NCBI RefSeq assembly: GCF_014270105.1 | Contig: NZ_JACNMF010000004.1 | Span: 370,944-434,943 of the forward strand | Origin: Hyunsoonleella aquatilis | Lineage (GTDB): Bacteria; Bacteroidota; Bacteroidia; Flavobacteriales; Flavobacteriaceae | Direction: 5' to 3' | DNA: 64,000 bases | Shown here: positions 17,510 to 51,645 of the stretch, piece by piece | Layout: the number at the start of each line of letters is the position of its first letter | Numbering within the stretch: position 1 is the first letter of the stretch | Notes under the pieces: model-generated | Told to the model about the DNA's origin: nothing | What the model saw: only the letters and a program-made list of their open reading frames with translations | The model's database searches: none | Translations under genes and position numbers: made by a program

Positions 17510-17553
17510 ATGACAGATATCATATTTTAAAACCCTTTGATTTTTGAATTTTG
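17510..17553 (+). promoter_or_regulatory. Crp/Fnr-type box and -7 element of ccoI
   Basis: ATGACAGATATCAT (17510-17523) fits ATGAyAnnTrTCAT. GAATTTTG (17546-17553) matches TAnnTTTG except at its first base. The centres are 33 bp apart, which puts the box near -41, the class II activator position. The same spacing occurs at three other sites in the window. Confidence 0.7.
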
Positions 17554-17578
17554 CTTCAGGTATAAATGAGCAAATAAT

Positions 17579-19954
17579 ATGGAGCATTCTAAATGTTTCC
17601 ACTGTGGTTTGGATGCCACATCTTCTGAAATCATCTTTGATGACAAATCGTTTTGTTGTAACGGTTGCAAAACCGTGTACGAGATATTTTCTGCAAACGA
17701 TTTAACTTGCTATTACGATTTAGAGAACGCTCCGGGTGCAACCCCAAAAGAAATTGAGGGCAAATACAACTTTTTGGACAATAAAAAGATTGTTGAAAGT
17801 CTGTTGGAGTTTAATGATGATAAAACACAAATCGTTACCCTTTATATTCCACATATACATTGCAGTTCCTGTATTTGGATTTTAGAAAATTTGAATAAGT
17901 TGAATCCCGCGGTGAGTTCATCCATCGTGAATTTTGGAAAGAAAACGGTTAGGGTTAATTATCATACAGATAATTTTTCGCTTAAGGATTTAGTGCGATT
18001 GTTAAGTAGCATAGGCTATGAGCCGTTTATAAGTTTGGATGATTATAGCGTCGGCAAAAAGAATGTGGACCGCTCTTTGATTTACAAATTGGGTATTGCG
18101 GGATTTGCATTTGGCAACATTATGTTTTTGTCCTTTCCCGAGTATTTTGAAGTGGGCGAATATTGGTTGGAACAATTTAAACACACCTTCAGGTGGCTGA
18201 TGTTTACCTTTTCGCTTCCGGTAGTGTTTTATTGCTCTCAGGACTATTTTGTATCTGCCTACAAGGGTTTAACTTCCAAACTTTTAAATATTGATGTGCC
18301 CATAGCCTTGGGCATAACCGTATTATTTTTAAGAAGTACTGCTGAAATCGTTTTTGACATCGGCACGGGCTTTTTTGATAGTTTATCTGGTTTGGTGTTC
18401 TTTTTGTTGCTTGGAAAATTCTTCCAGCAGAAAACCTATAATTTTCTATCATTTGAAAGGGATTACAAATCTTATTTTCCTATCGGAATTACGAAGATTT
18501 TGAATGATGGTTCAGAGGAATCCATACAGGTTTACGATATTAAAAAAGGGGATAGATTGTTGATTAGAAATGAAGAATTGATTCCCGTGGATTGTATTTT
18601 GATTAAGGGGAATGCCCGTATTGATTACAGTTTTGTGACTGGCGAATCGGATGCGGTTTCGAAACAATCGGGCGATAAATTATTTGCAGGTGGCAAACAG
18701 ACGGAAGGCAGTATTGAAGTGGATGTTTTAAAAACCGTGGAGCAAAGTTATCTGACCCAATTGTGGAGTAACGATGTGTTCAATAAAAACAAGGAGGACA
18801 GCTTTACGAATCTCACCAATAGAATCAGCAAACATTTTACACTGGCCGTACTCAGTATCGCCCTAATTGCAACAAGTTATTGGCTTTTTGCGGACTCATC
18901 CAAAGCCTTAAATGTATTTACAGCAGTATTGATTATTGCTTGTCCTTGCGCCATTGCCTTGGCCTCCCCTTTCACCTTTGGCAACCTGTTACGGATTTTT
19001 GGCAAATTGAAATTCTATGCCAAAAACGCTTCGGTGATTGAGCAATTGGCCTCGATTGACACCATTATATTTGATAAAACTGGAACGATTACGGCCAATA
19101 AGGAATCTTCGATTTCATACGAAGGCGAAACGCTTTCGGATGCAGAAGAAATCCTTTTGAAAAGCTCGTTGAGGAATTCAAATCACCCTTTGAGCCGTTC
19201 GCTGTATAGCCTTTTAGAAGACAATGACATCTTGACTTTGGATGATTACGAAGAACATATCGGGAAGGGCATTTCGGCAAAACACAAAGATGATTTTATA
19301 AAAATTGGTTCAGCACCTTTTGTGGGCCATCAAACGGATGCGGTGACATTGAACACCGCAGTTCACGTCAGCACCAACAACCGCTATAAAGGCAAGTTTA
19401 CCTTTTATAATAAATACAGAAAAGGGCTGTCGAAATTATTCAACAGGCTCAAAAAAGACTATGATTTAGTGATTCTTTCGGGGGATAATGCTGGGGAACG
19501 AGAGAATTTAACCAAGCTGTTGCCGGCCAAAACCAAATTGTTTTTTAACCAAAAGCCGGAGGATAAATTGGAATACATCAAGCACCATCAAAATTCTGGG
19601 GTAAAAGTATTGATGATTGGTGATGGGCTTAACGATGCTGGGGCATTGGCGCAAAGCGATGTTGGCATCGCTATTTCGGAGGATGTGAATGTGTTTTCAC
19701 CTGCTTGTGATGCGATTTTGGATGCCGGCAAATTCAATATGCTGTATAGATTTATCAAAGCCTCAAAATCGGCCATCACTATTATAAAATGGAGTTTTGT
19801 GCTATCGTTTATTTACAATGTAATTGGGCTTTATTTTGCAGTTACAGGACAATTGGCTCCTGTGGTTGCTGCCATTTTGATGCCTTTGAGCTCGATTAGT
19901 ATTGTAGTGTTTACAACGGTTTGCACGAACATATTGGGACGGAAACTGAGGTAG
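17579..19954 (+). CDS. ccoI: CcoI-type copper-translocating P1B ATPase
   Basis: This 791-residue membrane ATPase delivers copper for assembly of the cbb3 oxidase. An N-terminal cysteine-rich zinc-ribbon-like domain (CFHCGLDA, FCCNGCKTVYE) is followed by a heavy-metal domain with HIHCSSCIW. The CPC membrane motif (ACPCAIALASPF) is near residue 455, the phosphorylation site DKTGTIT near 499, the HP locus in NSNHPLSRSL, and GDGLND near 680. Size and domain order match FixI/CcoI. It heads the cco locus, downstream of an Fnr-type box and divergent from the Crp/Fnr gene. Confidence 0.94.
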   Translation: MEHSKCFHCGLDATSSEIIFDDKSFCCNGCKTVYEIFSANDLTCYYDLENAPGATPKEIEGKYNFLDNKKIVESLLEFNDDKTQIVTLYIPHIHCSSCIWILENLNKLNPAVSSSIVNFGKKTVRVNYHTDNFSLKDLVRLLSSIGYEPFISLDDYSVGKKNVDRSLIYKLGIAGFAFGNIMFLSFPEYFEVGEYWLEQFKHTFRWLMFTFSLPVVFYCSQDYFVSAYKGLTSKLLNIDVPIALGITVLFLRSTAEIVFDIGTGFFDSLSGLVFFLLLGKFFQQKTYNFLSFERDYKSYFPIGITKILNDGSEESIQVYDIKKGDRLLIRNEELIPVDCILIKGNARIDYSFVTGESDAVSKQSGDKLFAGGKQTEGSIEVDVLKTVEQSYLTQLWSNDVFNKNKEDSFTNLTNRISKHFTLAVLSIALIATSYWLFADSSKALNVFTAVLIIACPCAIALASPFTFGNLLRIFGKLKFYAKNASVIEQLASIDTIIFDKTGTITANKESSISYEGETLSDAEEILLKSSLRNSNHPLSRSLYSLLEDNDILTLDDYEEHIGKGISAKHKDDFIKIGSAPFVGHQTDAVTLNTAVHVSTNNRYKGKFTFYNKYRKGLSKLFNRLKKDYDLVILSGDNAGERENLTKLLPAKTKLFFNQKPEDKLEYIKHHQNSGVKVLMIGDGLNDAGALAQSDVGIAISEDVNVFSPACDAILDAGKFNMLYRFIKASKSAITIIKWSFVLSFIYNVIGLYFAVTGQLAPVVAAILMPLSSISIVVFTTVCTNILGRKLR

Positions 19955-19971
19955 CATTGGAGTCCTGTTGA

Positions 19972-20125
19972 ACTCCTCTTTCTTCTGATTTTAAAAAAAA
20001 ATCAGAATTCATTCTCCTCTTAAAATAAGAGGAGAGCTGGATGAGGATAGAAATTAGTTTGGATACAGCTCCTCCCTTTTTTAAAGGGAAGTGAGTTTTT
20101 CCTTAAGAAAAACTCAGAGGTTTAA
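19972..20125. repeat. Inverted, gene-less copy of the DUF559-flanking repeats
   Basis: Read on the minus strand this block has the same order as 14924-15115. First comes a hairpin with GAGTTTTT and AAAAACTC and a CCCTTT/AAAGGG hairpin, then a spacer, then the CTCCTCTTA hairpin and the CTGATTTT hairpin. Loop sequences differ while stems are kept. No DUF559 gene is attached. It occupies the space after ccoI and may terminate it. Confidence 0.75.
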
Positions 20126-20178
20126 AAACTTTGGCAAATGAGATGTTGGTTTGCAATGGAACAAAAACTGGCAGATTT

Positions 20179-20274
20179 GCCCGCGTTAGGGATTGTAGAG
20201 GAAAGCCCACAGTCACGCCCTAAGGCGTGACGAGGACTTGGAACGGAAAGCCCGACCCCTTGCGGGTAACGCCC
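20179..20274 (+). repeat. GCGTTAGGGATTG element, copy A
   Basis: This is one of four copies in the window that share GCGTTAGGGATTG at one end, GAAAGCCCGACC in the middle and TAACGCCC or AACGCCC at the other end. GCGTTA and TAACGC can close an outer stem. This copy belongs to the subtype with AGAGGAAAGCCCACAG and GAGGACTTGGAACGG. Its variable segment is filled by a perfect hairpin GTCACGCC/GGCGTGAC (20212-20231). It could be a mobile repeat or a structured RNA. Confidence 0.8.
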
Positions 20275-20291
20275 AAAAAATAAAATGAAAC

Positions 20292-20335
20292 ATGACAATT
20301 GTCATCTTTTAAATATATGTATAAAAGTATTTTTG
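20292..20335 (+). promoter_or_regulatory. Crp/Fnr-type box and -7 element of ccoSNOQP
   Basis: ATGACAATTGTCAT (20292-20305) is a perfect palindrome. TATTTTTG (20328-20335) is an exact TAnnTTTG match centred 33 bp downstream. The predicted transcription start is near 20339, 17 bases before ccoS, which places the box near -41. This is the best of the four matching sites and marks the main cbb3 oxidase promoter. Confidence 0.8.
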
Positions 20336-20355
20336 AACCGTAACTTCAATTAGGT

Positions 20356-20541
20356 ATGAGTGTTATATATGTTTTGCTTGCAGTAAGCATTATTGTGGCT
20401 GTTGCATTTTTTGTGGCATTTGTTGTTGCTGTAAAAAAGGGTCAGTTTGATGATAGCTACACCCCGTCTGTCCGCATGTTATTCGAGGACGAATTAATCA
20501 AAGATAAAACCGATAAAACGATACTAACCAAGAAAGATTAA
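20356..20541 (+). CDS. ccoS: CcoS, cbb3 oxidase assembly protein
   Basis: This 61-residue protein has one N-terminal membrane helix (MSVIYVLLAVSIIVAVAFFVAFVVAV) followed by KKGQFDDSYTPSVRMLFED, the recognisable CcoS/FixS signature. CcoS is needed with CcoI for cofactor insertion into the cbb3 oxidase. It is the first gene after the Fnr-type promoter and lies 10 bases before ccoNO. Confidence 0.92.
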   Translation: MSVIYVLLAVSIIVAVAFFVAFVVAVKKGQFDDSYTPSVRMLFEDELIKDKTDKTILTKKD

Positions 20542-20551
20542 ATATTTAGAT

Positions 20552-22735
20552 ATGGAAATGCAACAATTTCATTACGATAATAAAATCGTTACTAAGTTCC
20601 TTTATGCCACCATTATTTTTGGGGTTGTAGGAATGGTGGTAGGTTTACTGCTTGCCTTTATGTTTTTATTCCCGAATTTGACCGATGGCATCTCGTGGTT
20701 GAGTTTTGGTCGTTTGCGGCCTTTGCACACCAATGCGGTGATTTTTGCCTTTGTAGGGAACGCCATGTTTGCAGGGGTGTATTACTCGCTACAGCGCCTG
20801 TTGAAAACGCGTATGGCGAGCGACCTGCTGAGCAACATCAACTTTTGGGGATGGCAATTGATTATAGTCGCTGCGGCAATTACCCTGCCCTTGGGTATTA
20901 CCACTTCCAAAGAATATGCCGAGCTGGAGTGGCCAATTGATATTGCCATTGCACTGGTTTGGGTTGTTTTTGGGGTGAATATGATTTGGACGATTTTAAA
21001 GCGTCGCCAACGCCATTTGTATGTGGCCATTTGGTTTTATATCGCTACCGTGGTTACCGTTGCAGTACTCCATATTTTCAATAGTTTAGAATTACCTGTG
21101 AGCGGCCTAAAAAGTTACTCGGTGTATGCCGGTGTCCAGGATGCACTAGTGCAATGGTGGTATGGGCATAATGCGGTGGCGTTTTTCCTCACCACGCCTT
21201 TCTTGGGACTGATGTACTACTTTATACCGAAGGCGGCGAATAGACCGGTGTATTCCTATAGACTGTCTATCATCCACTTCTGGTCGTTGATTTTTATCTA
21301 TATCTGGGCAGGACCACACCACTTATTATATACGGCTTTACCCGATTGGGCACAAAATCTTGGGGTGACATTCTCTGTGATGTTGCTAATGCCTTCTTGG
21401 GGTGGTATGATTAACGGACTATTGACCCTTCGTGGGGCTTGGGACAAAGTACGAACCGACCCTGTATTGAAATTTATGGTTGTGGCGATTACCGGTTATG
21501 GTATGGCTACTTTTGAAGGGCCAACCCTTTCGCTTAAAAATGTAAACGCTATTGCTCACTTTACCGATTGGATTATTGCCCACGTACACGTTGGTGCTTT
21601 AGCTTGGAACGGTTTTATGGCTTTTGGTATGATTTACTATTTGATACCTCGCCTGTTTAAAACTAAACTGCATTCGTTGCCACTAGCCAATCTGCATTTC
21701 TGGTTGGGTACTTTAGGTATTATTATTTATGCGTTGCCGATGTATGTTGCCGGATTTACACAGGCTAGTATGTGGAAGCAGTTCAACCCTGATGGGACAT
21801 TGGTTTACGGTAACTTCTTGGAAACTGTTACCGAAATTATCCCCATGTATTGGATGCGTGCTATCGGTGGTACATTGTATATCGTAGGGATGCTGATACT
21901 TGTGTACAACGTAATTGCTACTGTAAGAAGTGGCAGCAAAGTTGAAGACGAATTGGCCGAAGCCCCTGCATTAGAACGTGTGACCAAAAGGCGTACGTCT
22001 AGCGAAGGCTGGCACACGTGGTTGGAAAGACGCCCAATTCAATTGACGTTATTGGCTACTGTGGCTATTTTGATTGGAGGCATTATTCAGATTGTACCGA
22101 CGATTATGGTGAAATCGAATATCCCGACCATTGCCAGTGTGAAACCATATACACCTTTGGAATTGGAAGGTAGGGATATTTACATCCGCGAAGGCTGTGT
22201 GGGCTGTCACTCCCAAATGATACGTCCGTTCAGAAGTGAGGTGGAACGTTATGGCGAATACTCAAAAGCTGGAGAATTTGTGTACGACCATCCTTTCCTT
22301 TGGGGAAGTAAACGTACCGGGCCGGATTTACACCGTATAGGTGGCAAGTACTCCGATAACTGGCATTTCAACCACATGTACGATCCGCAAAGTACCTCAT
22401 CCGGTTCTATCATGCCGCGTTACCAATGGCTGATAAAGAATGAGTTAGACAAATCGCAAACCGAAGCCAAAATGAAAACTATGGTGTCGCTGGGCGTACC
22501 GTATTCGGATGAAGAGATTGCCAACGCGCAACAAAGTATGACAGCTCAGGGGACTCAAATCGAGCAAAACCTGTATAGCGATCCTGATTTTGCGAAAACT
22601 TATGAAGCGGATAAAAATTATGCCACAGAAAACGGAGAGGCTTTCGTAGAAATGAAGAACCGCGAGATTGTGGCACTTATCGCTTATTTACAGCGATTGG
22701 GTACGGACATTAAAGTTGAAACCGCGCAGAATTAA
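20552..22735 (+). CDS. ccoNO: Fused cbb3 cytochrome c oxidase subunits I and II (CcoN-CcoO)
   Basis: This 727-residue protein joins the catalytic heme-copper subunit to the mono-heme subunit. The CcoN part (about residues 1-480) has 12 or more membrane helices and histidine-bearing motifs such as LHTNAVIFAF, WWYGHNAVAFF and HFTDWIIAHVHVG. The CcoO part from about 500 starts with one membrane helix and carries the heme c site CVGCH at about residue 549, in REGCVGCHSQMIRPF. The fusion is the usual form in Bacteroidota. The enzyme reduces oxygen with high affinity and pumps protons in the inner membrane. Confidence 0.95.
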   Translation: MEMQQFHYDNKIVTKFLYATIIFGVVGMVVGLLLAFMFLFPNLTDGISWLSFGRLRPLHTNAVIFAFVGNAMFAGVYYSLQRLLKTRMASDLLSNINFWGWQLIIVAAAITLPLGITTSKEYAELEWPIDIAIALVWVVFGVNMIWTILKRRQRHLYVAIWFYIATVVTVAVLHIFNSLELPVSGLKSYSVYAGVQDALVQWWYGHNAVAFFLTTPFLGLMYYFIPKAANRPVYSYRLSIIHFWSLIFIYIWAGPHHLLYTALPDWAQNLGVTFSVMLLMPSWGGMINGLLTLRGAWDKVRTDPVLKFMVVAITGYGMATFEGPTLSLKNVNAIAHFTDWIIAHVHVGALAWNGFMAFGMIYYLIPRLFKTKLHSLPLANLHFWLGTLGIIIYALPMYVAGFTQASMWKQFNPDGTLVYGNFLETVTEIIPMYWMRAIGGTLYIVGMLILVYNVIATVRSGSKVEDELAEAPALERVTKRRTSSEGWHTWLERRPIQLTLLATVAILIGGIIQIVPTIMVKSNIPTIASVKPYTPLELEGRDIYIREGCVGCHSQMIRPFRSEVERYGEYSKAGEFVYDHPFLWGSKRTGPDLHRIGGKYSDNWHFNHMYDPQSTSSGSIMPRYQWLIKNELDKSQTEAKMKTMVSLGVPYSDEEIANAQQSMTAQGTQIEQNLYSDPDFAKTYEADKNYATENGEAFVEMKNREIVALIAYLQRLGTDIKVETAQN

Positions 22736-22753
22736 CCCTCAAAATAAAGCATC

Positions 22754-22939
22754 ATGTTAAAATTTGTAAAAAACCATATGGAGAGCATCACGGGGATAGA
22801 AATCTATCCTATCATTTCGCTACTCATCTTTTTCATCTTTTTTGTGGCCTTATTTTGGTGGGTCGTTTCCGCTAAAAAAGACTATATCAAAAAAGTAAGC
22901 AACATTCCTTTAGACAACCAAAACAACGACATATTATGA
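22754..22939 (+). CDS. ccoQ: CcoQ-like small subunit of the cbb3 oxidase
   Basis: This 61-residue single-span protein has its membrane helix at about residues 20-40 (PIISLLIFFIFFVALFWWVV), followed by a charged cytoplasmic tail (SAKKDYIKKVSNIPLD). Size, helix position and location between ccoNO and ccoP identify it as CcoQ/FixQ, although the sequence itself is variable in this family. Its stop overlaps the ccoP start by four bases (ATGA), so translation is probably coupled. Confidence 0.85.
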   Translation: MLKFVKNHMESITGIEIYPIISLLIFFIFFVALFWWVVSAKKDYIKKVSNIPLDNQNNDIL

Positions 22940-23856
22940 GAAATTTAGTTCCATCCTGGATTCGCGTTCCTGTAGTTTTCCTGATTATTTTCGGAGCAGT
23001 TGAATTCTTTATAGATTCGGGTGAAAAACCCGCCTTTATCGAATATCCGGCAGTACTATTGTTTCTCTTGCTGGTATTGTTGATTTTAATTGCCATTGAA
23101 GCCATTGTTGGTGCATTGGAAAACGTCATGCTTCACAAATTGGACGAAGAAGCTAAAGCTAAGTTCTTGGCAGAAAAGGAAAAGTCGTTTGAGTTTAAAT
23201 GGTTAAAAGACACCTACATAAAACTATTGGGGCAAAAACCACTTGAGGAAGAAGGTGAGATTATTTTAGACCACAATTATGACGGCATCAAAGAGCTGGA
23301 CAACAATTTACCGCCATGGTGGGTGTATGGCTTTTATGCCACTATCATCTTTGCCGGAATTTATTTAGTGCGCTATCACATTTTTGATGGCGATACGCAA
23401 CTCGATGAATTGGAAACCGAATTAGCCGAAGCGAGAGTTGCCATTGAAGAGTATAAAAAGACAGCCAAGGATTTGGTAGATATCAATACGGTTACTATGT
23501 TGACCGAAGCTTCCGACCTTAAGGCTGGGCAAGCCATTTTTGAAACCAACTGTGTCGCCTGTCATAAAGCTGACGGTGGTGGAGGTATCGGTCCGAATTT
23601 GACGGATCAACATTGGATTCTTGGTGGCGGAATTAAAAATGTCTTTAGAACGATTTCCGAAGGTGGTCGTGACGGTAAAGGGATGATTGCTTGGAAGCAG
23701 AGTTTAAAACCGTCCGAAATGGCACAAGTAGCAAGTTATGTGCTGACTTTCCAAGGGACAACACCTGCAGAACCTAAAGCTCCGGAGGGCGATATTTGGG
23801 TAGATGAAAGTGCTCCCGCCGAAGCTGTTGAAGCGGTATCTGATGCAGTTCAATAA
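22936..23856 (+). CDS. ccoP: CcoP, cytochrome c subunit of the cbb3 oxidase
   Basis: This 306-residue subunit brings electrons to CcoO/CcoN. It has an extended N-terminus with two hydrophobic segments (about residues 10-25 and 35-60) and the FixP_N motif ELDNNLPPWWVYGFYATIIFA near residue 120. A single cytochrome c domain with CVACH at about residue 206 and an axial Met in KGMIAWKQ follows. Proteobacterial CcoP has two heme sites and this one has only one. The C-terminal tail is acidic and alanine-rich. It overlaps ccoQ by four bases. Confidence 0.92.
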   Translation: MRNLVPSWIRVPVVFLIIFGAVEFFIDSGEKPAFIEYPAVLLFLLLVLLILIAIEAIVGALENVMLHKLDEEAKAKFLAEKEKSFEFKWLKDTYIKLLGQKPLEEEGEIILDHNYDGIKELDNNLPPWWVYGFYATIIFAGIYLVRYHIFDGDTQLDELETELAEARVAIEEYKKTAKDLVDINTVTMLTEASDLKAGQAIFETNCVACHKADGGGGIGPNLTDQHWILGGGIKNVFRTISEGGRDGKGMIAWKQSLKPSEMAQVASYVLTFQGTTPAEPKAPEGDIWVDESAPAEAVEAVSDAVQ

Positions 23857-23918
23857 TTTCATTAGAAAAACTAAAGATTTCAAGTACATCATATCAAACT
23901 AAGCTAAACTAAACATTT

Positions 23919-24001
23919 GACCTGCAAGGTTTTCGAGACCTTGTAGGTCTTTAAAAAGAAGCCTCAAACACATACCTACAAGGTTCTTAAAACCTTGCAG
24001 G
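23919..24001. repeat. Two CCTGCAAGG palindromes between ccoP and ccoG
   Basis: GACCTGCAAGGT pairs with ACCTTGTAGGTC (23919-23949), and CCTACAAGGTT pairs with AACCTTGCAGG (23974-24001). Both have an A/G mismatch at the same stem position, in opposite arms, so the second is an inverted copy of the first. A third copy lies inside the repeat element at 25489-25619. The function is unknown; it may attenuate transcription between ccoP and ccoG. Confidence 0.8.
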
Positions 24002-35225: not shown

Positions 35226-36059
35226 CTAAATCTTAAACGTCATCACCGGCAATGTAGAATGATTGGCCACATCCTCGCCAATACTACCCTCAAAAAAGTG
35301 CGCCAAACCTTTTCTGCCATGGGTGGGTACCACGATCAAATCTGCCCCTATTTTGCTGGCGCAGTTTAAAACGCCTTCTTCCACAGAATAATCATTGATG
35401 TAGTGTACATCCTCCATTTTATCCAAGTTGCGTTCGGCCTTGGCAAAAAAGTTGACCACTTTTTTCTCAATTTCCAAAGAACTTTGAAAGCGGTCATTGG
35501 GCAAATTCACATGAATCAAATACAATTTCGACCCCATATCCTTAAACATCTTTGACGCTTTTAAGTAAGGCTCAATGGCTTCTTCTGAAAAATCACATGC
35601 AAAGGCCACCACATCAAAATTGATTCCAGCACGATCATCCTTTACTACCAAAACTGGCACATTGGCATTGCGCACTACGCGTTCGGTATTGGAGCCTACA
35701 AAGAATTCTGCAATACCGCTGGAACCGTGCGATCCCATCACAATCAGGTCTGCATCATTCTTTATGGCCACATCATTCACCTCGCTAAACACTTTAAAAT
35801 GCTTAACTATCGGGGTTAATTTTATTTCCTTCAGATAATCCTTTTCTAAAAATTTGTCAAACTTTTGCTGTGCCAATTTTAAAAAGAACACCGCTTTTTC
35901 ATTTTGCAGACCGTCAGATGCTGACAACATGATATCTGACATTTCCAACATGTGCAAAGCCAATACCTCGGCATTATATTTTTTGGCCAATTTTGAAGCT
36001 GTTTTCAGGGCATATTCGGAATGCTCCGAGAAGTCGATGGGTACAATTATTTTTTTCAT
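35226..36059 (-). CDS. Universal stress protein with two UspA domains
   Basis: This 277-residue protein has two tandem UspA domains. The first runs from IIVPIDFSEHSEYALKTASKLA to the ATP-binding-type motif VMGSHGSSGIAEFFVGSNTERV. The second runs from VVAFACDFSEEAIEPYLKAS to VVPTHGRKGLAHFFEGSIGEDV. Both keep the G-x2-G-x9-G(S/T) nucleotide motif. It starts 18 bases after the hemN stop and is probably co-transcribed with hemN under the Fnr-type promoter, which fits the role of Usp proteins in low-oxygen stress. Confidence 0.92.
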   Translation of the reverse strand: MKKIIVPIDFSEHSEYALKTASKLAKKYNAEVLALHMLEMSDIMLSASDGLQNEKAVFFLKLAQQKFDKFLEKDYLKEIKLTPIVKHFKVFSEVNDVAIKNDADLIVMGSHGSSGIAEFFVGSNTERVVRNANVPVLVVKDDRAGINFDVVAFACDFSEEAIEPYLKASKMFKDMGSKLYLIHVNLPNDRFQSSLEIEKKVVNFFAKAERNLDKMEDVHYINDYSVEEGVLNCASKIGADLIVVPTHGRKGLAHFFEGSIGEDVANHSTLPVMTFKI

Positions 36060-36077: not shown

Positions 36078-37442
36078 TTATACAGTCATTGAAAACAACT
36101 GTGTATCTGGTTTTTTCCGTTGCAATAGCATGTCGAATGCCATACAAACGTTACGTACAAATGGCCGTCCCTTTTCGGTAACCTGAATGCTATTGGAATC
36201 TATTACAAGTAATCCATCCTTTTCCATTTCCTTTAAACGGATCAAAACGTCCGGGAGTTCATCAAAATAAAGGTGGCTTTTGGTCCAATTCGTTTCAAAC
36301 TGGCACATTAAGTTCAAAATATGTCTTCGTATAATTAAATCCTCATTATTCAAAATATGACCTCGAAATACAGGAATACTATCGTCTTTTAAAAGACTGT
36401 AATAGCTTTCAATGTCCTTAACATTTTGGGCAAAACCGTACCAACTGTCGCTTATAGAAGATACGCCCAAACCAATCATAGCCTGCGTTTTGGAAGCAGT
36501 ATAACCCATGAAGTTTCGATGCAAATTCCCGTTTTCCATGGATTGATGCAGGGTATCCGTTGTTAACGCAAAATGATCCATGCCTATTTCCTCATAGCCC
36601 ACTTCGGCCAATAATTGCTTGCCCGTTTCGTATTGTTGACGCTTCAATTCAGCCGAGGGCAAATCCGAATCTTTAAAACCACGTTGGCCATTCCCTTTTA
36701 TCCAAGGTACATGGGCGTAGCTATAAAATGCCAATCGGTCTGGTAATAATTCCTTCGTCTTCAAAATCGTTTCGGTTACATGCTCCAAAGTTTGAAACGG
36801 CAAACCGAATATAATATCATGACCCACGGAGGTGTAACCAATTTTACGAGCCATTTCAGTAGCTCGTTTTACATTTTCAAAAGGTTGGATTCTGTGAATG
36901 GCTTTCTGAACGGTCTCATTATAATCTTGAACCCCATAACTTACGCGCCTAAACCCTACATCATATAATGCCTGCAAATGTGCTTCGGTAGTATTATTGG
37001 GATGGCCCTCAAAACTGAACTCGTGACCAACGGCTAATTCGGAAGTCTTCAAAATTTTCAGAATCAAATATTTCAAATGCTCTGGACTGAAAAAAGTGGG
37101 TGTTCCTCCCCCCAAATGCAACTCCTTTATTACTGGCTTTTCATCGAATAAATCCAAATACAAGCGCCACTCTTTTAATAGTGCCTTGATGTACGGCGAC
37201 TCCACACTGTGTTGTTTAGTGATGCGTTTGTTGCATCCGCAAAACGTACACAGGCTTTCGCAAAACGGTAAATGGATATAAATACTGATGCCTTCTTTGG
37301 CATTACTTTCATTAAAAGATTGGACTAAAGTCGATTTCCATTTTTCCGTTGAAAATGTCTCATTATTCCAATACGGTACCGTTGGATAGCTCGTATAGCG
37401 AGGCCCCGCAATATTGTATTTATTGACTAAAGAATTTAACAT
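36078..37442 (-). CDS. hemN: Oxygen-independent coproporphyrinogen III oxidase
   Basis: This radical SAM enzyme of about 454 residues makes protoporphyrinogen IX without oxygen. The ATG at 37442 is the preferred start; a TTG three codons upstream is weaker. The cluster motif is C-x3-C-x2-C (Cys61, Cys65, Cys68) in HLPFCESLCTFCGCNKR, followed by HLGGGTPTFF. The extra Cys70 and the full length with HemN C-terminal domain favour true HemN over HemW. It has an Fnr-type box at its promoter, so heme supply is coordinated with the cbb3 oxidase. It is followed by uspA. Confidence 0.93.
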   Translation of the reverse strand: MLNSLVNKYNIAGPRYTSYPTVPYWNNETFSTEKWKSTLVQSFNESNAKEGISIYIHLPFCESLCTFCGCNKRITKQHSVESPYIKALLKEWRLYLDLFDEKPVIKELHLGGGTPTFFSPEHLKYLILKILKTSELAVGHEFSFEGHPNNTTEAHLQALYDVGFRRVSYGVQDYNETVQKAIHRIQPFENVKRATEMARKIGYTSVGHDIIFGLPFQTLEHVTETILKTKELLPDRLAFYSYAHVPWIKGNGQRGFKDSDLPSAELKRQQYETGKQLLAEVGYEEIGMDHFALTTDTLHQSMENGNLHRNFMGYTASKTQAMIGLGVSSISDSWYGFAQNVKDIESYYSLLKDDSIPVFRGHILNNEDLIIRRHILNLMCQFETNWTKSHLYFDELPDVLIRLKEMEKDGLLVIDSNSIQVTEKGRPFVRNVCMAFDMLLQRKKPDTQLFSMTV

Positions 37443-37459: not shown

Positions 37460-37503
37460 CAAAATTAAACCAAACCGTTTCAAAAAAACATGATATATGT
37501 CAT
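37460..37503 (-). promoter_or_regulatory. Crp/Fnr-type box and -7 element of hemN-uspA
   Basis: ATGATATATGTCAT (37490-37503) fits ATGAyAnnTrTCAT. On the minus strand TAATTTTG (37460-37467) matches TAnnTTTG exactly, with centres 33 bp apart. The predicted start near 37456 leaves a short leader of about 14 bases before hemN. Confidence 0.78.
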
Positions 37504-37568: not shown

Positions 37569-38138
37569 ATGAAAAAATTAAGCATTTTATGCCTTGTATT
37601 GGCTGTTACGCTATCAGCATGCAAGAAGAAAAAGGAAGACATAAAAGTTGAGGAAACCGTTGAAGAAAAGTTAGAAGTAGTACAAACTAAAAAGGTAAAA
37701 ATAGAGCTAAACGCAAAAAGCGAAACCAATGCTACGGGGAATGTAGTTTTTAAGGAAGAAGACGGAAGCGTAACCATGACGGCAATTATCAGCGGTTTGG
37801 AGCCGGGGGAACATGCCATTCATATTCACGCAAAATCGGATTGCTCCTCCCCTGATGGAAAATCCGCCGGAGGGCACTGGAACCCGACAAATACGCCACA
37901 CGGTAAATGGGGCGCTGCGGAAGGTTATCATAAAGGAGATATAGGGAATTTTATGGCCGATGAAAATGGAAACGGTACGATTTCCTTCACCACCGATCAA
38001 TGGTGTATTGGCTGTGGCGATGCAAATAAGGATATTATCGGAAAAGGTGTCATTGTACATGCGGGCGCTGACGATTTCACCTCACAACCTTCGGGTTCGG
38101 CTGGGGCAAGAGTAAGCTGTGCCGGGATTATTCAATAA
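37569..38138 (+). CDS. sodC: Cu/Zn superoxide dismutase lipoprotein
   Basis: This 189-residue protein has a lipoprotein signal peptide with Cys18 in MKKLSILCLVLAVTLSAC. The SodC fold follows with copper and zinc ligand motifs HAIHIHAKSDC, SAGGHWNPTNTPHG and GNFMADENG. VIVHAGADDF and the C-terminal GSAGARVSCAGII, with the partner cysteine of the intramolecular disulfide, complete the family pattern. The enzyme removes superoxide in the periplasm or at the cell surface. It is divergent from hemN. A terminator follows. Confidence 0.92.
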   Translation: MKKLSILCLVLAVTLSACKKKKEDIKVEETVEEKLEVVQTKKVKIELNAKSETNATGNVVFKEEDGSVTMTAIISGLEPGEHAIHIHAKSDCSSPDGKSAGGHWNPTNTPHGKWGAAEGYHKGDIGNFMADENGNGTISFTTDQWCIGCGDANKDIIGKGVIVHAGADDFTSQPSGSAGARVSCAGIIQ

Positions 38139-46192: not shown

Positions 46193-46238
46193 AATATCGT
46201 TTAAACTTAAAAATAAACCTATCCGATATTAAGGGTTT

Positions 46239-46994
46239 TTACTCCAACCAAGCCCTAAAATCCTTTACCCGTTCACGGGCAACGATGACCTCCTGTTCGT
46301 TATAAGAGTTTAGTTTTATTTGCAGTCGCGAATTGGTATAGCTTACCATATCCTTAATGGCATTGATGTTTACGAAGAATTTACGGTTGATGCGGAAAAA
46401 CGTTTGCGGTTCCAATTCATCTTGAAGATATTCTAAAGTGGTGTCCATCAAATAATTTCTGCCATCCACGGTGTAAAGATACGTGCCTTTATTTTCGCTG
46501 TAAAAGCATTCGATTTCATCAATATTAATCAATTTCAAATGCTGACCCACCTTAACGGAAAAGCGCTTTTTGTATTCCCGATCAATCGGATTGACCAACA
46601 GTTTTTTGATATCGTTGAAATCCAAAGTAACGGCCTGCCTTTTAGGCAACCGTTCTTGGTATTTTTTTACGGCTGTTGCTAATTCATCTTCATCGATAGG
46701 TTTTAATAAATAATCAATGCTGTTCAATTTAAAAGCCTGAAGGGCATATTCGTCGTAGGCCGTGGTGAAAATAACCGCAGATTTAATTTCGATAGTTTCG
46801 AAAATTTCAAACGACAGACCATCACTTAGCTGGATATCCAAAAAGATTAAATCAGGATGGTGGTTGTTTTGAAACCACGTGATCGACTCCTCGACGGAAT
46901 GCAACAGCACTTCGGCATTTAAATCCAAACTTTGGAGCATCCGCTGTAAACGCCTTGCTGATGGTTTTTCGTCCTCAATTATTATTATGTTCAT
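46239..46994 (-). CDS. LytTR family response regulator
   Basis: This 251-residue regulator has a receiver domain with phospho-acceptor Asp53 in LIFLDIQLSDG and a C-terminal LytTR DNA-binding domain from about residue 145 (FSVKVGQHLKLINIDEIECF to QTFFRINRKFFVNINAI). It follows the LytS-like kinase and 2TM genes on the same strand, separated from them by a GCGTTAGGGATTG repeat. It is the evident partner of that kinase. Confidence 0.92.
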   Translation of the reverse strand: MNIIIIEDEKPSARRLQRMLQSLDLNAEVLLHSVEESITWFQNNHHPDLIFLDIQLSDGLSFEIFETIEIKSAVIFTTAYDEYALQAFKLNSIDYLLKPIDEDELATAVKKYQERLPKRQAVTLDFNDIKKLLVNPIDREYKKRFSVKVGQHLKLINIDEIECFYSENKGTYLYTVDGRNYLMDTTLEYLQDELEPQTFFRINRKFFVNINAIKDMVSYTNSRLQIKLNSYNEQEVIVARERVKDFRAWLE

Positions 46995-47062
46995 TTTTAA
47001 AACTGTTGACTGTTTCTAATATTTCGAATTTATTTATCGATATTTTATTTAACTTCTGCATT

Positions 47063-47162
47063 GCGTTAGGGATTGAACGGCATGTTTGAAATCCTCGACG
47101 CAGGAGGGATTGAGTAGTGAAAGCCCGACCCTCCCGATAGCTATCGGGAGTGGGTAACGCCC
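47063..47162 (+). repeat. GCGTTAGGGATTG element, copy C, with nested CCCGATAGC palindrome
   Basis: This copy matches copy B closely (GGCATGTTTGAAATCC, CGACGCAGGAGGGATTGAG, GAAAGCCCGACC) and ends GGGTAACGCCC. Its variable segment is a perfect 20-bp palindrome, CTCCCGATAGCTATCGGGAG (47131-47150), the same palindrome found at 60117-60138 and, in one-mismatch form, at 57308-57325. It separates the 2TM genes from the response regulator gene. Confidence 0.82.
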
Positions 47163-47170
47163 AAATAAAA

Positions 47171-47491
47171 TTACTCCCACATCCTGGTTTCGTTTTGCTC
47201 TTTTTTCAAGAATTCCTTCGCTCTATCGTTTTCCCATTTTTTACTAAAAAAGGTTTTTCCCTTCAGTGCCCACCTCCCGTGCAAAATGATAAACGCGGTC
47301 CATGCTACCATTATGATTGAATTAAACCAGTTAAAAAAATTGGCGTATGGCCCAGCAACTATCATTAAATTCCAAATCAACAATGCCACTACGATAAAAT
47401 AGCCCACCAAATGATAGTAGAATATTTTAACCTGGCGCACCTTTTCCTTGGCCTTTAAATAGCTTTGATTTTTATCTGAATCCGTTTTCAT
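47171..47491 (-). CDS. 2TM domain protein
   Basis: This 106-residue protein has an amphipathic N-terminal helix (SYLKAKEKVRQVKIFYYHLVGYF), two membrane helices and a charged C-terminus ending KWENDRAKEFLKKEQNETRMWE. It belongs to the 2TM domain family that accompanies LytS/LytTR genes in Flavobacteria. It is the third of three free-standing copies downstream of the kinase, three bases after the previous one, and the most diverged. The function is unknown. Confidence 0.85.
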   Translation of the reverse strand: MKTDSDKNQSYLKAKEKVRQVKIFYYHLVGYFIVVALLIWNLMIVAGPYANFFNWFNSIIMVAWTAFIILHGRWALKGKTFFSKKWENDRAKEFLKKEQNETRMWE

Positions 47492-47494
47492 CTT

Positions 47495-47833
47495 TTACTC
47501 AAATTGACGTCTATCCTGCTCTTCCTTTTCCATAAACTCACGGATTTTCCGTTCTTCCCATTTTTTACCGAATGCGAAGCGCCTACCAAATACACCAATG
47601 GCGTGAAATCCAAGGCCGATGCCCCAAAAAACAGGGGTGGCCCATGTACCGAAGTGGAAAAAACTGCCTCCGTTATATATAATCATTCCAACAATGAAGA
47701 TGTTAACCGCCACGTACCAGAAGGCGTGCCAGTAAAATCCCTTCAATTCCTTTAAGCGCTTTTCTGCCCTTAGGTAGGCCTCTTCATTACTATAATTCTT
47801 TTCGCTATATGGCTTTATATCGTAATTTTCCAT
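47495..47833 (-). CDS. 2TM domain protein
   Basis: This protein has about 112 residues from the ATG at 47833 (MENYDIKPYSEKNYSNEEAYLRAEKRLKELKGFYWH); an upstream extension of seven residues overlaps the previous gene. The two membrane helices (YVAVNIFIVGMIIYN and PVFWGIGLGFHAIGV) are followed by FGKKWEERKIREFMEKEEQ, the 2TM family C-terminal motif. It is a paralogue of its neighbours and of the C-terminal domain of the kinase. Confidence 0.87.
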   Translation of the reverse strand: MENYDIKPYSEKNYSNEEAYLRAEKRLKELKGFYWHAFWYVAVNIFIVGMIIYNGGSFFHFGTWATPVFWGIGLGFHAIGVFGRRFAFGKKWEERKIREFMEKEEQDRRQFE

Positions 47834-47844
47834 TGTTGTTAAAT

Positions 47845-48150
47845 TTAATTCCATCTATTCTCTCGTTCTTCACGCATAAATTGTTCTATTTTTCGTTGTT
47901 CCCATTTATGGCCAAAGATTGGGTTTCGAGCATATACACGGTAAGCATGAAATGCAATTCCAATACCCCATCCTATAGCCGAAAACAAGAACCATTTAAT
48001 TTCCCAAAAGGTTTTATAGTTGATAAAAGCCAGGAAGGGAATTACGAGGCAATATGCAAAAATATTGCAGTAGAGCCCTTTTAGTTCCTTAACACGAAGC
48101 CTTGCTCGTGTAAATCTGTCATTCTGTTTTTCGATTGATAATTTTTTCAT
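47845..48150 (-). CDS. 2TM domain protein
   Basis: This protein has about 101 residues from the ATG at 48150 (MKKLSIEKQNDRFTRARLRVKELKGLYCN). Two membrane helices (AYCLVIPFLAFINY and FSAIGWGIGIAFHAYRVY) precede FGHKWEQRKIEQFMREERENRWN. It is the copy closest to the kinase-linked 2TM domain, sharing VIPFL-FINYKT and RRKIEQFMRE-type segments. It begins 10 bases after the kinase gene. Confidence 0.88.
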   Translation of the reverse strand: MKKLSIEKQNDRFTRARLRVKELKGLYCNIFAYCLVIPFLAFINYKTFWEIKWFLFSAIGWGIGIAFHAYRVYARNPIFGHKWEQRKIEQFMREERENRWN

Positions 48151-48160
48151 AGTAATACAT

Positions 48161-49507
48161 TTAATTCCATCTGCCGTTTTCCTGTTCCTCCTCACGCATA
48201 AACTGTTCTATCTTGCGACGTTCCCAATTGCCCCCCATGGCCTTATCACTTACAAAAACCTTAAAAGCCTGAATAGCCAAACCTAGACCCCAACCAAATA
48301 CCGGGAACCAAAACCATTGAAAATTCCAGTACGTTTTGTAATTGATAAAGATGAGGAAAGGAATAACCAAAACATAGGATATTAAACTGAAATAAAATCC
48401 TTTAAGCTCCTCTACATGTTTTTTGGCACGCAGATAACCGTCGTCCAATTGATTTGATGATTGTGGTCTCATAACTGATATTTGTTTGGTGAGCATAGGG
48501 ATGGCCACGGCAAACCTGTTAGCTCCTTTGTCGATATTAATTTTTCTTTGTGTTAATAAACTGTAGCGTTGCATAATGTTGCTTAAGCCTACGCCACTAC
48601 TCTTTTTTACGATTTGTTTGGGTTGCAAATTGTTTTCAACCACTAAAAACCCATCATCCTCATAAATTTGAATATGTAGTGGCTTACTGGAAGTCACCAT
48701 ATTGTGTTTTACTGCATTTTCCAAAAGCAGCTGCAAAGATAATGGCACCACCTTACTGTCTGGATTTTGGGCCCTTTCCGGTAAGGTAAATACAATACTA
48801 TCCTCAAATCGCATTTTAAGAAGGGACATATAGGTTCTGGCAAATTGCAATTCCTCATCAACCGTAACCAATTCCTTATTCTTTTGTTCCAAAACATAGC
48901 GATACACTTTGGAAAGCGAAGTGGTAAACTTTTGTGCCTGATTTGGGTTTTCCTCAATTAAACTGGTCAGCACATTCAAACTATTAAAGAGAAAATGAGG
49001 ATCCAACTGGTTTTTGAGGGCATCGAACTTGGCGCTTGCGGTACCGGCAATGACTTTTTGTTCCTTAATGCGATTTTGTTGGAACCTATTGTAGAAATAA
49101 ATAACGTGAAACACACCAACGATGGCCAGGGTAATCCACACTCCGAATTTATAGTAACCAAACTTTTCGCTGGACAAAAATTCCTCAAAGGTGTAACCGA
49201 GATAAAACACATACGTTCCTGCCCTAAGCAAAAACAATCCAGCAAGTGTAAGAACCGTCGATCCAATTACCCCTGCTATAATTCGCTTAAGCGGGTTATT
49301 TTTGTTCCAATTGAAACGCTCCATATAATCAAAGAAATACATGTTGGAGTATCCCAGGACGAAGGCGTATAACTGATAGAACGAAAACTCGATAAAAAAC
49401 TCATTGGCATCCTTATAATCAAATCCATCGTATAGAAACTGTGCTATGAGATAAACAACGCATCCAATGATAAAGGTGATAATGATTTTTTTAATCGAAG
49501 CTTTCAT
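48161..49507 (-). CDS. LytS-like sensor histidine kinase fused to a 2TM domain
   Basis: This 448-residue kinase has four N-terminal membrane helices (to about residue 140), then the His_kinase domain with His171 in NQLDPHFLFNSLN. An ATPase region with LQLLLENAVKHNMV and GVGLSNIMQRY follows. Residues from about 355 form a complete 2TM domain (YLRAKKHVEELKGFYFSL to WERRKIEQFMREEE). The fusion gives the kinase a second membrane module like the three separate 2TM proteins that follow. It probably signals to the LytTR regulator at 46239. Confidence 0.92.
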   Translation of the reverse strand: MKASIKKIIITFIIGCVVYLIAQFLYDGFDYKDANEFFIEFSFYQLYAFVLGYSNMYFFDYMERFNWNKNNPLKRIIAGVIGSTVLTLAGLFLLRAGTYVFYLGYTFEEFLSSEKFGYYKFGVWITLAIVGVFHVIYFYNRFQQNRIKEQKVIAGTASAKFDALKNQLDPHFLFNSLNVLTSLIEENPNQAQKFTTSLSKVYRYVLEQKNKELVTVDEELQFARTYMSLLKMRFEDSIVFTLPERAQNPDSKVVPLSLQLLLENAVKHNMVTSSKPLHIQIYEDDGFLVVENNLQPKQIVKKSSGVGLSNIMQRYSLLTQRKINIDKGANRFAVAIPMLTKQISVMRPQSSNQLDDGYLRAKKHVEELKGFYFSLISYVLVIPFLIFINYKTYWNFQWFWFPVFGWGLGLAIQAFKVFVSDKAMGGNWERRKIEQFMREEEQENGRWN

Positions 49508-49528
49508 AATGTATTAGGTACTTAAATC

Positions 49529-50152
49529 TTATTTTTCGCAAGATTTCAAAAGCATTTCAACACGGTCCTTACCCCAATTAGGGTGAAATGGCGACTCTGG
49601 TTTAAAATTAGCAAAAAGTTCTTTGGCTCTTTCCAAATCCTTGCAAAACGGCGTAGTATCCTGCCCAAAATACTGGGCACTACCAATATTCCATTCCGCA
49701 TTCGAGGCTACTACCCTCGGATTTTCCGGAGCTATGGCCTCTGCCTTAGCATATAATTCTACCACTTTTGGTGACAGTGTCATGCCATAAGTAGCCCCAT
49801 CCGATGCAATCCAAGCTGTGTGCAACATGGCCTGCATTACCATAATTTCGGGGTTGTTTTTGGAAATTGCCGTTGCATCATTCAACAAATCCTGTGCTTT
49901 TTTCAATTGCGCGGCGAGTTTGTCTTTGTCCTTTTCTCCAAAACTGGTGACAATATTGATTTGGGCAGCCCAATAGGGTGGCAACCAATTATCGGGTTCT
50001 GCCGAGGCTATACGTTCAAAGAGGTTTACAGCTTCGCTAGGTTTACCATTGCCCCATAATTCAAAGGCTTTATTCATTCCCTTTTCATAATTGGTTTGCG
50101 CAATGGTTACTGTTGAGATTAGAAGTGTTGCAATGATGATTAACTGTTTCAT
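49529..50152 (-). CDS. Secreted tetratricopeptide-repeat protein
   Basis: This 207-residue protein has a signal peptide (MKQLIIIATLLISTVTIAQ) followed by TPR-like helical pairs, such as KAFELWGNGKPSEAVNLFERIASAEPDNWLP. Near the C-terminus WNIGSAQYFGQDTTPFCKDLERAKELF and HPNWGKDRVEMLLKSC recur in a Bacteroidota family of unknown function. It lies 11 bases after a DUF2141 gene and 21 bases before the LytS-like kinase, so all may be in one transcript. Confidence 0.82.
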   Translation of the reverse strand: MKQLIIIATLLISTVTIAQTNYEKGMNKAFELWGNGKPSEAVNLFERIASAEPDNWLPPYWAAQINIVTSFGEKDKDKLAAQLKKAQDLLNDATAISKNNPEIMVMQAMLHTAWIASDGATYGMTLSPKVVELYAKAEAIAPENPRVVASNAEWNIGSAQYFGQDTTPFCKDLERAKELFANFKPESPFHPNWGKDRVEMLLKSCEK

Positions 50153-50163
50153 TCTGATTGATT

Positions 50164-50577
50164 TTAAAGATTAATATTTTGCTTTACTGATTTATTCTTT
50201 ACTTCGAACTTGGCATCCTCCCATTTTGGAGGCCCCATAAATCCTGTGGCATTATTGGAACATCCGTAAGCCTCTTTCGGAATGCCAAACATACCAGTAT
50301 CCATTTTGTTATTTCCGTTTTCATCGTGAAATAAAGAAATGGCGTAAATACCATTAGGAACATTTTTAAACACGACCGTACAACTATTATCTTCAATTTT
50401 TGAATTGACATGCTTAAAGCCTTTTCCTAAGAAACTTTCCTCGGTATTGTATAGCCCAACAAATACTTTTCCATCGTTGCTTTCTAAATTTGAAACAACA
50501 ACGGTAATGTCGTTTTGGGCCATAACACAGGAAGTGAAGACAACTAAGCAATAAATAGTCTTAAAAATGCGGTTCAT
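50164..50577 (-). CDS. DUF2141 family secreted protein
   Basis: This 137-residue protein has a signal peptide (MNRIFKTIYCLVVFTSCVMA). The DUF2141 pattern follows: ITVVVSNLESNDGKVFVGLYN, VPNGIYAISLFHDENGNNKMDTGMFGIPKEAYG and a GPPKWEDAKFEV ending. The beta-sandwich with DxNxNxxxD-like residues may bind calcium. The function is unknown. It is followed by the TPR gene. Confidence 0.9.
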   Translation of the reverse strand: MNRIFKTIYCLVVFTSCVMAQNDITVVVSNLESNDGKVFVGLYNTEESFLGKGFKHVNSKIEDNSCTVVFKNVPNGIYAISLFHDENGNNKMDTGMFGIPKEAYGCSNNATGFMGPPKWEDAKFEVKNKSVKQNINL

Positions 50578-50703
50578 AATATTACTAGTTTTTAATGATG
50601 AAACAAATATCAGTGCAAAATCGAAGTTATTAAAACTATCCTTACCGAATTGTTAAATACCCATACTGAATTGTAATTAAGTAGATTTTTATCTCAAACG
50701 AAG

Positions 50704-50752
50704 AAAAAGAAAAGGCCGAAAACATCTTAAATTAAGACATCTTCAGCCTTTC
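50704..50752 (-). terminator. Rho-independent terminator of tonB
   Basis: On the minus strand AAAGGCTGAAGATGTCTTAA pairs imperfectly with TTAAGATGTTTTCGGCCTTT and runs into TTCTTTTTC. It lies 44 bases after the tonB stop. Confidence 0.75.
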
Positions 50753-50795
50753 AAGCACAATAACCGCTTAAACCCAAAAAAGTCAGTTATGTATT

Positions 50796-51524
50796 TTATT
50801 GTTCGGCCATCACAAAATTGATGGGCAGGCTAAAAGGTACGCTCACAGGTTTGCCACGCTGTTTACCCGGAATCATTTTTGGCAATCTATTGATGATGCG
50901 CTTAGCCTCATTCTCAAGCATTTTATCTGGTCCGCGGGTTCTTACTTTGGTAATGCTACCATCGGACGCAATCACAAAAATGACATAAACCCGTCCGCTA
51001 ATACCCATTTCTAGGGCTACTTCTGGGTAGTTAAAGTTTTTTGCAACATGGGCATTTATCATTTCCTGAAAGCATTTTTTACGTTCCGGTTTCGCAACAT
51101 TCTCGCATCCCGGAAAAATCGGAGCATCCTCAATAATGGCAAAAGGTACTTCAACGTACTCCTCAACAGCTTCCACATGCACATCCTCAACCCTAACTAC
51201 ATCCCGAATTACGTCCTCCTGACTGGTCTCAGTGCTTTCAAAAACGGTTTCCTCCACTTCCTCGGTGTCCTCCACAATGGTTACCGACTCCTGTGTTACC
51301 GCTGGTGGAGGTGGCGGAGGTGGTGGTGTGTCCATTGTAACCAGAGGAATTTCCTCTTCAATTTCTGTATCCATTTGGACAATGTCTGCAATAATCTCTT
51401 CCTGCTCATAGGTTTTATGCTCCAATGCCTGCCATGATAAAAACAGCATAACATTGAGTCCTATGGCGAAATAGAGGCTGCTATTCCGGCCTACCTCTAA
51501 TTCTGGGTTCTTTTTAGGTATCAT
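50796..51524 (-). CDS. tonB: Energy transducer TonB
   Basis: This protein has about 242 residues from the ATG at 51524 (MIPKKNPELEVGRNSSLYFAIGLNVMLFLSWQAL). It has one N-terminal membrane helix, an acidic and proline-rich periplasmic spacer (TPPPPPPPPAVTQ) and a C-terminal TonB domain (YPEVALEMGISGRVYVIFVI to NRLPKMIPGKQRGKPVSVPF). TonB passes proton-motive force to outer-membrane receptors. No exbB/exbD lies nearby. The promoter has an Fnr-type box, an unusual form of control that suggests a link to low oxygen. Confidence 0.9.
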   Translation of the reverse strand: MIPKKNPELEVGRNSSLYFAIGLNVMLFLSWQALEHKTYEQEEIIADIVQMDTEIEEEIPLVTMDTPPPPPPPPAVTQESVTIVEDTEEVEETVFESTETSQEDVIRDVVRVEDVHVEAVEEYVEVPFAIIEDAPIFPGCENVAKPERKKCFQEMINAHVAKNFNYPEVALEMGISGRVYVIFVIASDGSITKVRTRGPDKMLENEAKRIINRLPKMIPGKQRGKPVSVPFSLPINFVMAEQ

Positions 51525-51601
51525 GCTTTTAATTTTAATGGTTAACACCTCAACAGAATGGCAATAAAAATCTACCATCTTGAACGTTCAAATTATTACA
51601 T

Positions 51602-51645
51602 TAAAGTTACCTCAACCTACTGAGAATTACTATGATAATTATCAT
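51602..51645 (-). promoter_or_regulatory. Crp/Fnr-type box and -7 element of tonB
   Basis: ATGATAATTATCAT (51632-51645) is a perfect palindrome that fits ATGAyAnnTrTCAT. On the minus strand TAACTTTA (51602-51609) matches TAnnTTTG except for the last base, with centres 33 bp apart as in the three other sites. The predicted leader is about 74 bases. Confidence 0.65.

Follow-up and report, generated by a model that had tools for sequence, protein, structure and literature searches.

Why should promoters scattered over a stretch of bacterial chromosome share one box at one fixed distance from a -7 element, and which protein reads it? The question is raised by 64,000 nucleotides of the Hyunsoonleella aquatilis genome (hereafter the window), in which the same 14-bp palindromic box precedes ccoI, the cbb3 oxidase (cco) operon, hemN and tonB, and in which a Crp/Fnr-type regulator, here called A, is encoded next to ccoI. 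We consider it quite probable that Flavobacteriaceae have an FNR-type regulon for low oxygen, that these boxes are its operators and that A reads them; A would repress its own gene and would probably sense oxygen or redox state through an iron-sulfur (Fe-S) cluster. The proposal stands on sequence comparison, namely on the element itself, its fixed geometry, its conservation, the gene set behind it and its co-occurrence with A or with a receiver-domain paralogue that shares its recognition residues; from these we infer that A binds and activates, that it represses itself, that it carries an Fe-S cluster and that the signal is oxygen.

The box pattern ATGAYANNTRTCAT has four exact matches in the window, beginning at 17510, 20292, 37490 and 51632, as an earlier note on this DNA had reported. 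Shuffled versions of the window contain 0.04 matches on average, and none of 100 shuffles reached four. At all four sites a -7 octamer follows after exactly 22 bp in the direction of the gene, in agreement with the centre-to-centre distance of 33 bp given in that note. The features concerned are the following, most of the genes being open reading frames (ORFs) with profile matches.

16794-17471, minus strand: gene of regulator A, Crp/Fnr, 225 aa (ORF; Pfam cNMP_binding, HTH_Crp_2 and Crp)
17494-17501, minus strand: -7 element TATTTTTA in the promoter of A, separated by 8 bp from the box that A shares with ccoI
17510-17523, no strand assigned: box ATGACAGATATCAT, common to ccoI (centre -41.5) and the regulator (centre about -27.5)
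17546-17553, plus strand: ccoI -7 element GAATTTTG, leading T missing
17579-19954, plus strand: ccoI, copper-type P-type ATPase (ORF and profile matches)
20292-20305, no strand assigned: cco operon box ATGACAATTGTCAT
20328-20335, plus strand: cco -7 element TATTTTTG
20356-20542, plus strand: small ORF between the cco box and ccoN, presumably ccoS from its position
20552-22735, plus strand: fused ccoN-ccoO (NCBIfam PRK14485, score above cut-off)
22936-23856, plus strand: ccoP-like cytochrome c subunit (name read off the ORF sequence only)
35226-36059, minus strand: universal stress protein gene, usp (Pfam Usp), beginning 18 bp behind hemN
36078-37442, minus strand: hemN, oxygen-independent coproporphyrinogen III oxidase (TIGR00538, 434 bits, cut-off 325)
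37460-37467, minus strand: hemN -7 element TAATTTTG
37490-37503, no strand assigned: hemN-usp box, ATGACATATATCAT on the minus strand
50796-51578, minus strand: tonB (ORF; Pfam TonB_C and TIGR01352 on 50796-51533)
51602-51609, minus strand: tonB -7 element TAACTTTA
51632-51645, no strand assigned: tonB box ATGATAATTATCAT

The site at 37490, which had been assigned to hemN and uspA together, does precede hemN; usp has no box of its own in the window and lies downstream of hemN. A copper/zinc superoxide dismutase gene (37569-38138, plus strand) diverges from hemN, and the hemN box is situated in the intergenic region between the two. The true start of tonB may be internal, near 51524.

In Flavobacterium psychrophilum, the TAnnTTTG element occupies -12 to -5, according to the accessible part of PMC9723704. 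It follows from this position and from the 22-bp spacer that the box would be centred at -41.5, which is the class II activator position and supports the location near -41 proposed in the earlier note. The same source, as far as available, reports that oxygen limitation strongly induces the cbb3 oxidase and heme-synthesis enzymes of F. psychrophilum.

A scan of the whole genome (3.93 Mb in 21 contigs, with the reversed pattern as control), which the earlier note had proposed, enlarges this picture considerably. There are 11 exact boxes genome-wide against two in the control, and nine of the 11 are followed at 22 bp by a -7 element that departs from the pattern in no more than one position; the two lacking it are at loci L004 and L002. 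When the box, the 22-bp spacer and TANNTTTR are sought together with up to two mismatches, 32 sites are found in the genome versus three for the reversed control. Twenty-four of these composite sites have at most one mismatch; none falls within a stop-to-stop frame of 150 codons or more, and in every case an ORF starts less than 300 bp downstream. The regulon thus comprises about 24 promoters, and the four-promoter regulon originally described was too small. The fifth exact box precedes the pyruvate-formate lyase gene (pfl), about 3.2 kb beyond the window. Other elements precede a second universal stress protein gene, a NapA-like nitrate reductase cluster, the gene for the small subunit of cytochrome c nitrite reductase (nrfH) and that for pyruvate phosphate dikinase (the NapA and dikinase ORFs were truncated at the locus end as tested and score below their respective cut-offs), as well as genes for a heavy-metal-associated domain protein, a CitMHS transporter, a YceI protein and others. 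The genome's own Pta, CBS-domain protein and Thioredoxin_9 protein, also encoded behind an element, were recognized by eye from their N-termini in comparison with the homologues scanned. Taken as a whole, the set is one of microaerobic and anaerobic energy metabolism such as an FNR-type regulon would hold, and the low-oxygen content claimed for the four operons is borne out.

Some sites, in relatives as well as in this genome, lead to less familiar genes. A family of proteins of about 600 aa has the element in front at six sites; its member at L251:684-2489 (minus strand) has no Pfam or NCBIfam match, and the H. aquatilis copy is at L479:2-1468 (minus strand). We regard the family as a conserved candidate low-oxygen gene. 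At three sites the element precedes the gene of a 230-aa protein (L242:1793-2482, minus strand), for which a Pfam search returned no match. The exact box in L002 (1501-1514) lacks a -7 element behind it and overlaps the initiation codon of an ORF that looks SatD-like by eye; it is possibly a repressor site or a chance occurrence.

The element is conserved well beyond this species. The exact composite form occurs in 133 of 199 Flavobacteriaceae genomes, with 470 sites as opposed to seven in the reversed control (the latter totalled by hand). In a sample of the phylum it was found in 28 of 30 family genomes versus 30 of 266 others (divided into the two groups by hand; reversed control, 6/296), so the element is mainly a feature of the family. 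Taken from among the matches listed, with spacers of 21 to 23 bp permitted, 124 unique sites from 31 genomes were read, nine of which lack a downstream ORF of 60 codons, one of them (probably L286) because the flank on the wrong side was read. The spacer is 22 bp in 114 of them, 21 in six and 23 in four. The genes behind these listed sites include usp (13), hemN (12), tonB (12), the CBS protein gene (8), the ~600-aa family (6), ccoN (6), pta (5), and moeA, pyruvate phosphate dikinase, cytochrome c and copper nitrite reductase genes (3 each), among others. The inclusion of tonB, unexpected when first suggested, is upheld: the element precedes tonB in 10 of the 13 genomes in which at least four composite sites were read, and in 12 of all 31.

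The cco promoter allowed an approach whose starting point is independent of the motif. The region upstream of ccoN was read in 80 genomes, chosen (not at random) from 148 with a ccoN match; 33 have the receiver-domain paralogue only, 27 have A only, 18 have both and two have neither. Absence of the boxes from orthologous promoters had been named as the outcome that would speak against the regulon, and the boxes are present: 68 of the 80 genomes carry a box with at most one mismatch and an exact -7 element at a spacing of 22. Between 5 and 45, no other spacing is seen in more than one genome, and the reversed sequences gave no match at spacings of 15 to 29. The element is found in 23/27 genomes with A only, 16/18 with A and the paralogue, and 27/33 with the paralogue only. 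Column by column, 69 aligned cco promoters are invariant in TGA, TCA, TA and the final TT of the -7 element. The first box base is A in 37, C in 30 and T in two, so that CTGA forms the upstream half-site in 30 of the 69; the last base is T in 68. Directly behind the box, at element positions 16 to 19 (which would correspond to -33 to -30), TTTT is conserved in 81 to 95% of the promoters, a hint that they retain a -33 element next to the activator box.

In this genome the best candidate for the reader of the box is A. It belongs to the Crp/Fnr superfamily by its cyclic nucleotide-binding fold and Crp-type helix-turn-helix, with Pfam scores above the gathering thresholds and a matching fold: the AlphaFold2 model (mean predicted local distance difference test score, 84.8) has Foldseek neighbours that include the Crp/Fnr protein of Porphyromonas gingivalis (PDB 2gau) and Aliivibrio fischeri FNR. 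The P. gingivalis protein is its best match by sequence and by fold (32% identity in the structural alignment). A scores 62 bits against the NCBIfam CRP model PRK11753, below the cut-off of 266. It is present at E ≤ 1e-50 in 117 of the 199 family genomes. Its gene is the only Crp/Fnr gene in the window at E ≤ 1e-12, as previously stated, more distant Crp/Fnr proteins not having been searched for.

The arrangement of A and ccoI is also widely conserved. Among the 80 genomes of the cco survey, 45 have A, and in 41 of these A diverges from ccoI within 8 kb before ccoN, directly adjoining it (gap below 400 bp) in 36. The four others are G132, G110 (A just past the stretch fetched), G128 and G180 (none shown in either of the last two). 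In a second collection, the best 80 of 586 candidate loci, A diverges from ccoI in 76, and the same 76 have a box within 260 bp before A. On the ccoI side, NAnnTTTG follows the box at 22 bp in 72 of the 76; on the side of A, the regulator's own -7 element is 8 bp from the box in 55 and 9 bp in 10. A first set had given a spacing of 8 in 19/40 and of 22 in 4/40. The window's regulator-ccoI intergenic region shows this same arrangement of one box and two -7 elements. Its unusual GAATTTTG fits as well, since the ccoI -7 element lacks the leading T in most of the family promoters read. A box at a spacing of 8 spans about -34 to -21 of A's promoter, a repressing position, which suggests autorepression; the shared box has the look of an operator for A as well.

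One could therefore envision, on the strength of these sequence patterns, the following mechanism. A dimer of A would bind MTGAYANNTRTCAT centred at -41.5 and activate, in class II fashion, promoters with a TAnnTTTG-type -7 element. Among the genes activated would be those for the cbb3 oxidase and the copper ATPase that goes with it, for anaerobic heme synthesis, for the reduction of nitrate and nitrite, for pyruvate-formate lyase and for stress proteins, and also tonB. A would repress its own gene from the box that separates it from ccoI. To sense oxygen or redox state, it would probably use an Fe-S cluster with Cys4, Cys7 and Cys106 as ligands and with Cys53 replacing Cys29 of FNR.

The cysteines of A invite comparison with FNR, whose ligands are residues 20, 23, 29 and 122. 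Every one of 60 family proteins has Cys4, Cys7, Cys53 and Cys106; 41 of them have Cys29 and 45 have Cys59. One further family member, 40% identical, keeps the CxxC and the Cys53 and Cys106 positions, as judged by eye. Twenty homologues from outside the family were also compared, of which 17 do not belong to the sister family f2 discussed below; 16 of the 17 have all four cysteines by alignment, and the other (G296) has a shifted CxxC, seen by eye. When A is aligned with A. fischeri FNR, Cys4, Cys7 and Cys106 stand opposite FNR cysteines; three of the four ligand positions are thus shared, and the invariant Cys53 differs. FNR and ANR of Proteobacteria have in common with A the fold (A. fischeri FNR being among the best structural matches), these three positions, the class II box and targets such as hemN, cbb3 and usp, the latter two being Anr targets. 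The Anr core also includes hemN, according to the part of PMC6588701 that was accessible. In contrast to FNR/ANR, A has the invariant Cys53, the promoters are of the TAnnTTTG type and tonB is in the regulon. The boxes differ too: MTGAY-N4-RTCAT in Flavobacteriaceae as opposed to the TTGAT-N4-ATCAA of FNR. The recognition helix, GTATESAIR, has Ile where FNR has Ser, and the earlier note took this Ile (Ile194) to be the cause of ATGA half-sites in place of TTGA. The Ile is invariant in 60/60 family proteins, and the receiver-domain paralogues read carry it as well; this is consistent with the idea without proving it, and the upstream half-site is often CTGA. A phylum-wide comparison of Ile and Ser proteins by means of the composite pattern was dropped because the element is mostly limited to the family.

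Several observations weigh against the proposal. The third N-terminal cysteine of FNR (Cys29) has no counterpart in A by alignment, and A scores 102 bits against the NCBIfam Fnr model PRK11161, below the cut-off of 228. Twelve of the 80 cco promoters miss the strict definition of the element, and 12 of 69 genomes with A only have no exact composite site. G132, the one further genome from this genus, has A on a different contig and not in the 8 kb before ccoN. Composite sites occur in 57/69 genomes with A only, 44/48 with A and a receiver-domain fusion, 26/37 with the fusion only and 6/45 with neither; A is therefore not needed everywhere, as the fusion-only genomes show, and the last class is a weak control because it consists mostly of genomes without ccoN, which confounds the contrast with gene content.

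These counts bear directly on an alternative that we judge improbable, in which the boxes are read by another Crp/Fnr protein and A regulates only ccoI and itself. Two candidates for such a reader exist: a receiver-domain Crp/Fnr fusion of about 350 aa, found at E ≤ 1e-60 in 85 of the 199 family genomes, and a homologue on contig C17, which is, apart from A itself, the only protein of the H. aquatilis genome resembling A at E ≤ 1e-12. The fusions read have the same E..IR recognition residues as A, Ile included, and the promoter element in their genomes; they differ from A in having an N-terminal receiver domain (named from sequence) and in lacking the cysteine set. The C17 protein likewise has the E..IR helix and adjoins the nap cluster. 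However, the fusion is absent from the H. aquatilis genome at E ≤ 1e-60, A is physically linked to ccoI and to a box, and composite sites are present in 41 of 53 A-only genomes that have no second close Crp/Fnr match (E ≤ 1e-20). The persistence of the element in these 41 genomes rules out the C17-type homologue as a necessary reader. Together with the absence of the fusion, it makes A the likeliest reader in H. aquatilis. In other genomes the fusion is a likely one; the adjacent Crp/Fnr gene singled out at the start remains the best candidate here, but across the family other proteins may read the box too. The C17 homologue (L510:3423-4172, minus strand) has CxxCx4C at its N-terminus; its neighbours are the nap cluster and an ORF judged by eye to be globin-like. 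In eight genomes (G061, at C1:696909-699613, and G071, G110, G121, G134, G153, G159 and G173) the fusion is encoded within about 2 kb of A; an example protein is at L088.

A different doubt concerns the signal. The missing counterpart of FNR Cys29 would suit a regulator that responds to thiol redox state, nitric oxide, a metal or a carbon metabolite, with the cysteines forming a disulfide or a metal site, and in the accessible part of a bioreactor survey (PMC8510549) a Flavobacteriales Crp/Fnr homologue was placed near the carbon-sensing MalR group. Such a signal, rather than oxygen sensed through Fe-S, strikes us as unlikely, though it deserves to be taken seriously: the gene set is respiratory and anaerobic, Cys4, Cys7 and Cys106 align with FNR ligands, and homologues from other families keep the cysteine set, which has decayed in the sister family. 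As to the notion that the boxes are chance occurrences or belong to promoters of AT-rich Flavobacteria in general, base composition does favor ATGAT and ATCAT words. The shuffles, the reversed controls and the single fixed spacing nevertheless led us to reject a chance origin, and the orthologous promoters and consistent gene set concur in making this explanation exceedingly improbable.

If A does read the boxes, the likely regulator is named for a family that is abundant in the sea, in soil and in fresh water, and its cysteines offer a naturally occurring variation on the ligands of FNR. The element provides a concrete list of promoters, which includes the nitrate reductase cluster and a cytochrome nitrite reductase subunit, as well as copper nitrite reductase in relatives. 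It would also connect oxygen supply with TonB, through which uptake across the outer membrane receives its energy. In the literature searched, most subscription papers being outside its reach, we found neither a low-oxygen regulon of Flavobacteriaceae described together with its binding site nor any account of the present element. The name Fnr does not occur in the accessible portions of PMC8552683 and PMC5395568, and the bioreactor survey, as far as available, gives no evidence of denitrification control by these Crp/Fnr proteins in Flavobacteriales (PMC8510549).

The sister family f2, for which sets of 30 loci from the 57 matching genomes were read, offers a view of what may become of such a regulator. 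None of the 30 f2 proteins has the cysteine quartet (by alignment Cys4 is present in three, Cys7 in one, Cys53 in four and Cys106 in three), and none has a CxxC within its first 60 residues. The loss may represent a single event and thus one observation. The recognition sequence GTATESAIRL is identical in all 30, and A diverges from ccoI in 29 of 30 loci. Between the two genes lies a palindrome, TGA-N6-TCA, whose distance to the ccoI-side TAnnTTTG is 43 bp in 15 loci, 33-34 bp in seven and 21 bp in three; distances of 32, 38 and 52 occur once each, and three loci have no such palindrome. The distances of 43, 33-34 and 21 bp correspond to about -62.5, -53 and -40.5, in steps of roughly one helical turn, so that the putative ccoI box of f2 would mostly lie about one or two turns farther upstream. 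It is tempting to speculate, and we do so tentatively, that Bacteroidota have their own kind of FNR, with a cluster on CxxC, the beta-roll Cys53 and Cys106; that one sister family dropped the sensor, kept the helix and the ccoI neighborhood, and shifted the ccoI operator from -41.5 to about -53 or -62.5; and that elsewhere a receiver-domain protein reads the same code. If so, an oxygen switch would have been rebuilt in the sister family as another type of switch, with the DNA code little changed.

At the f2 cco promoters, the -41.5 element as defined for Flavobacteriaceae is found in 0 of 30. A box of any kind occurs in five of 30, with spacings of 10 (two), 23 (one), 33 (one) and 34 (two). 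A repressor geometry for these promoters, seen in three f2 genomes, did not generalize (3/30, or 2/30 when the Flavobacteriaceae-type definition is applied). Among the f2 cco promoters at L408, L412, L415, L441, L443 and L448, some have the box 10 bp from the -7 element, in a repressor-like position.

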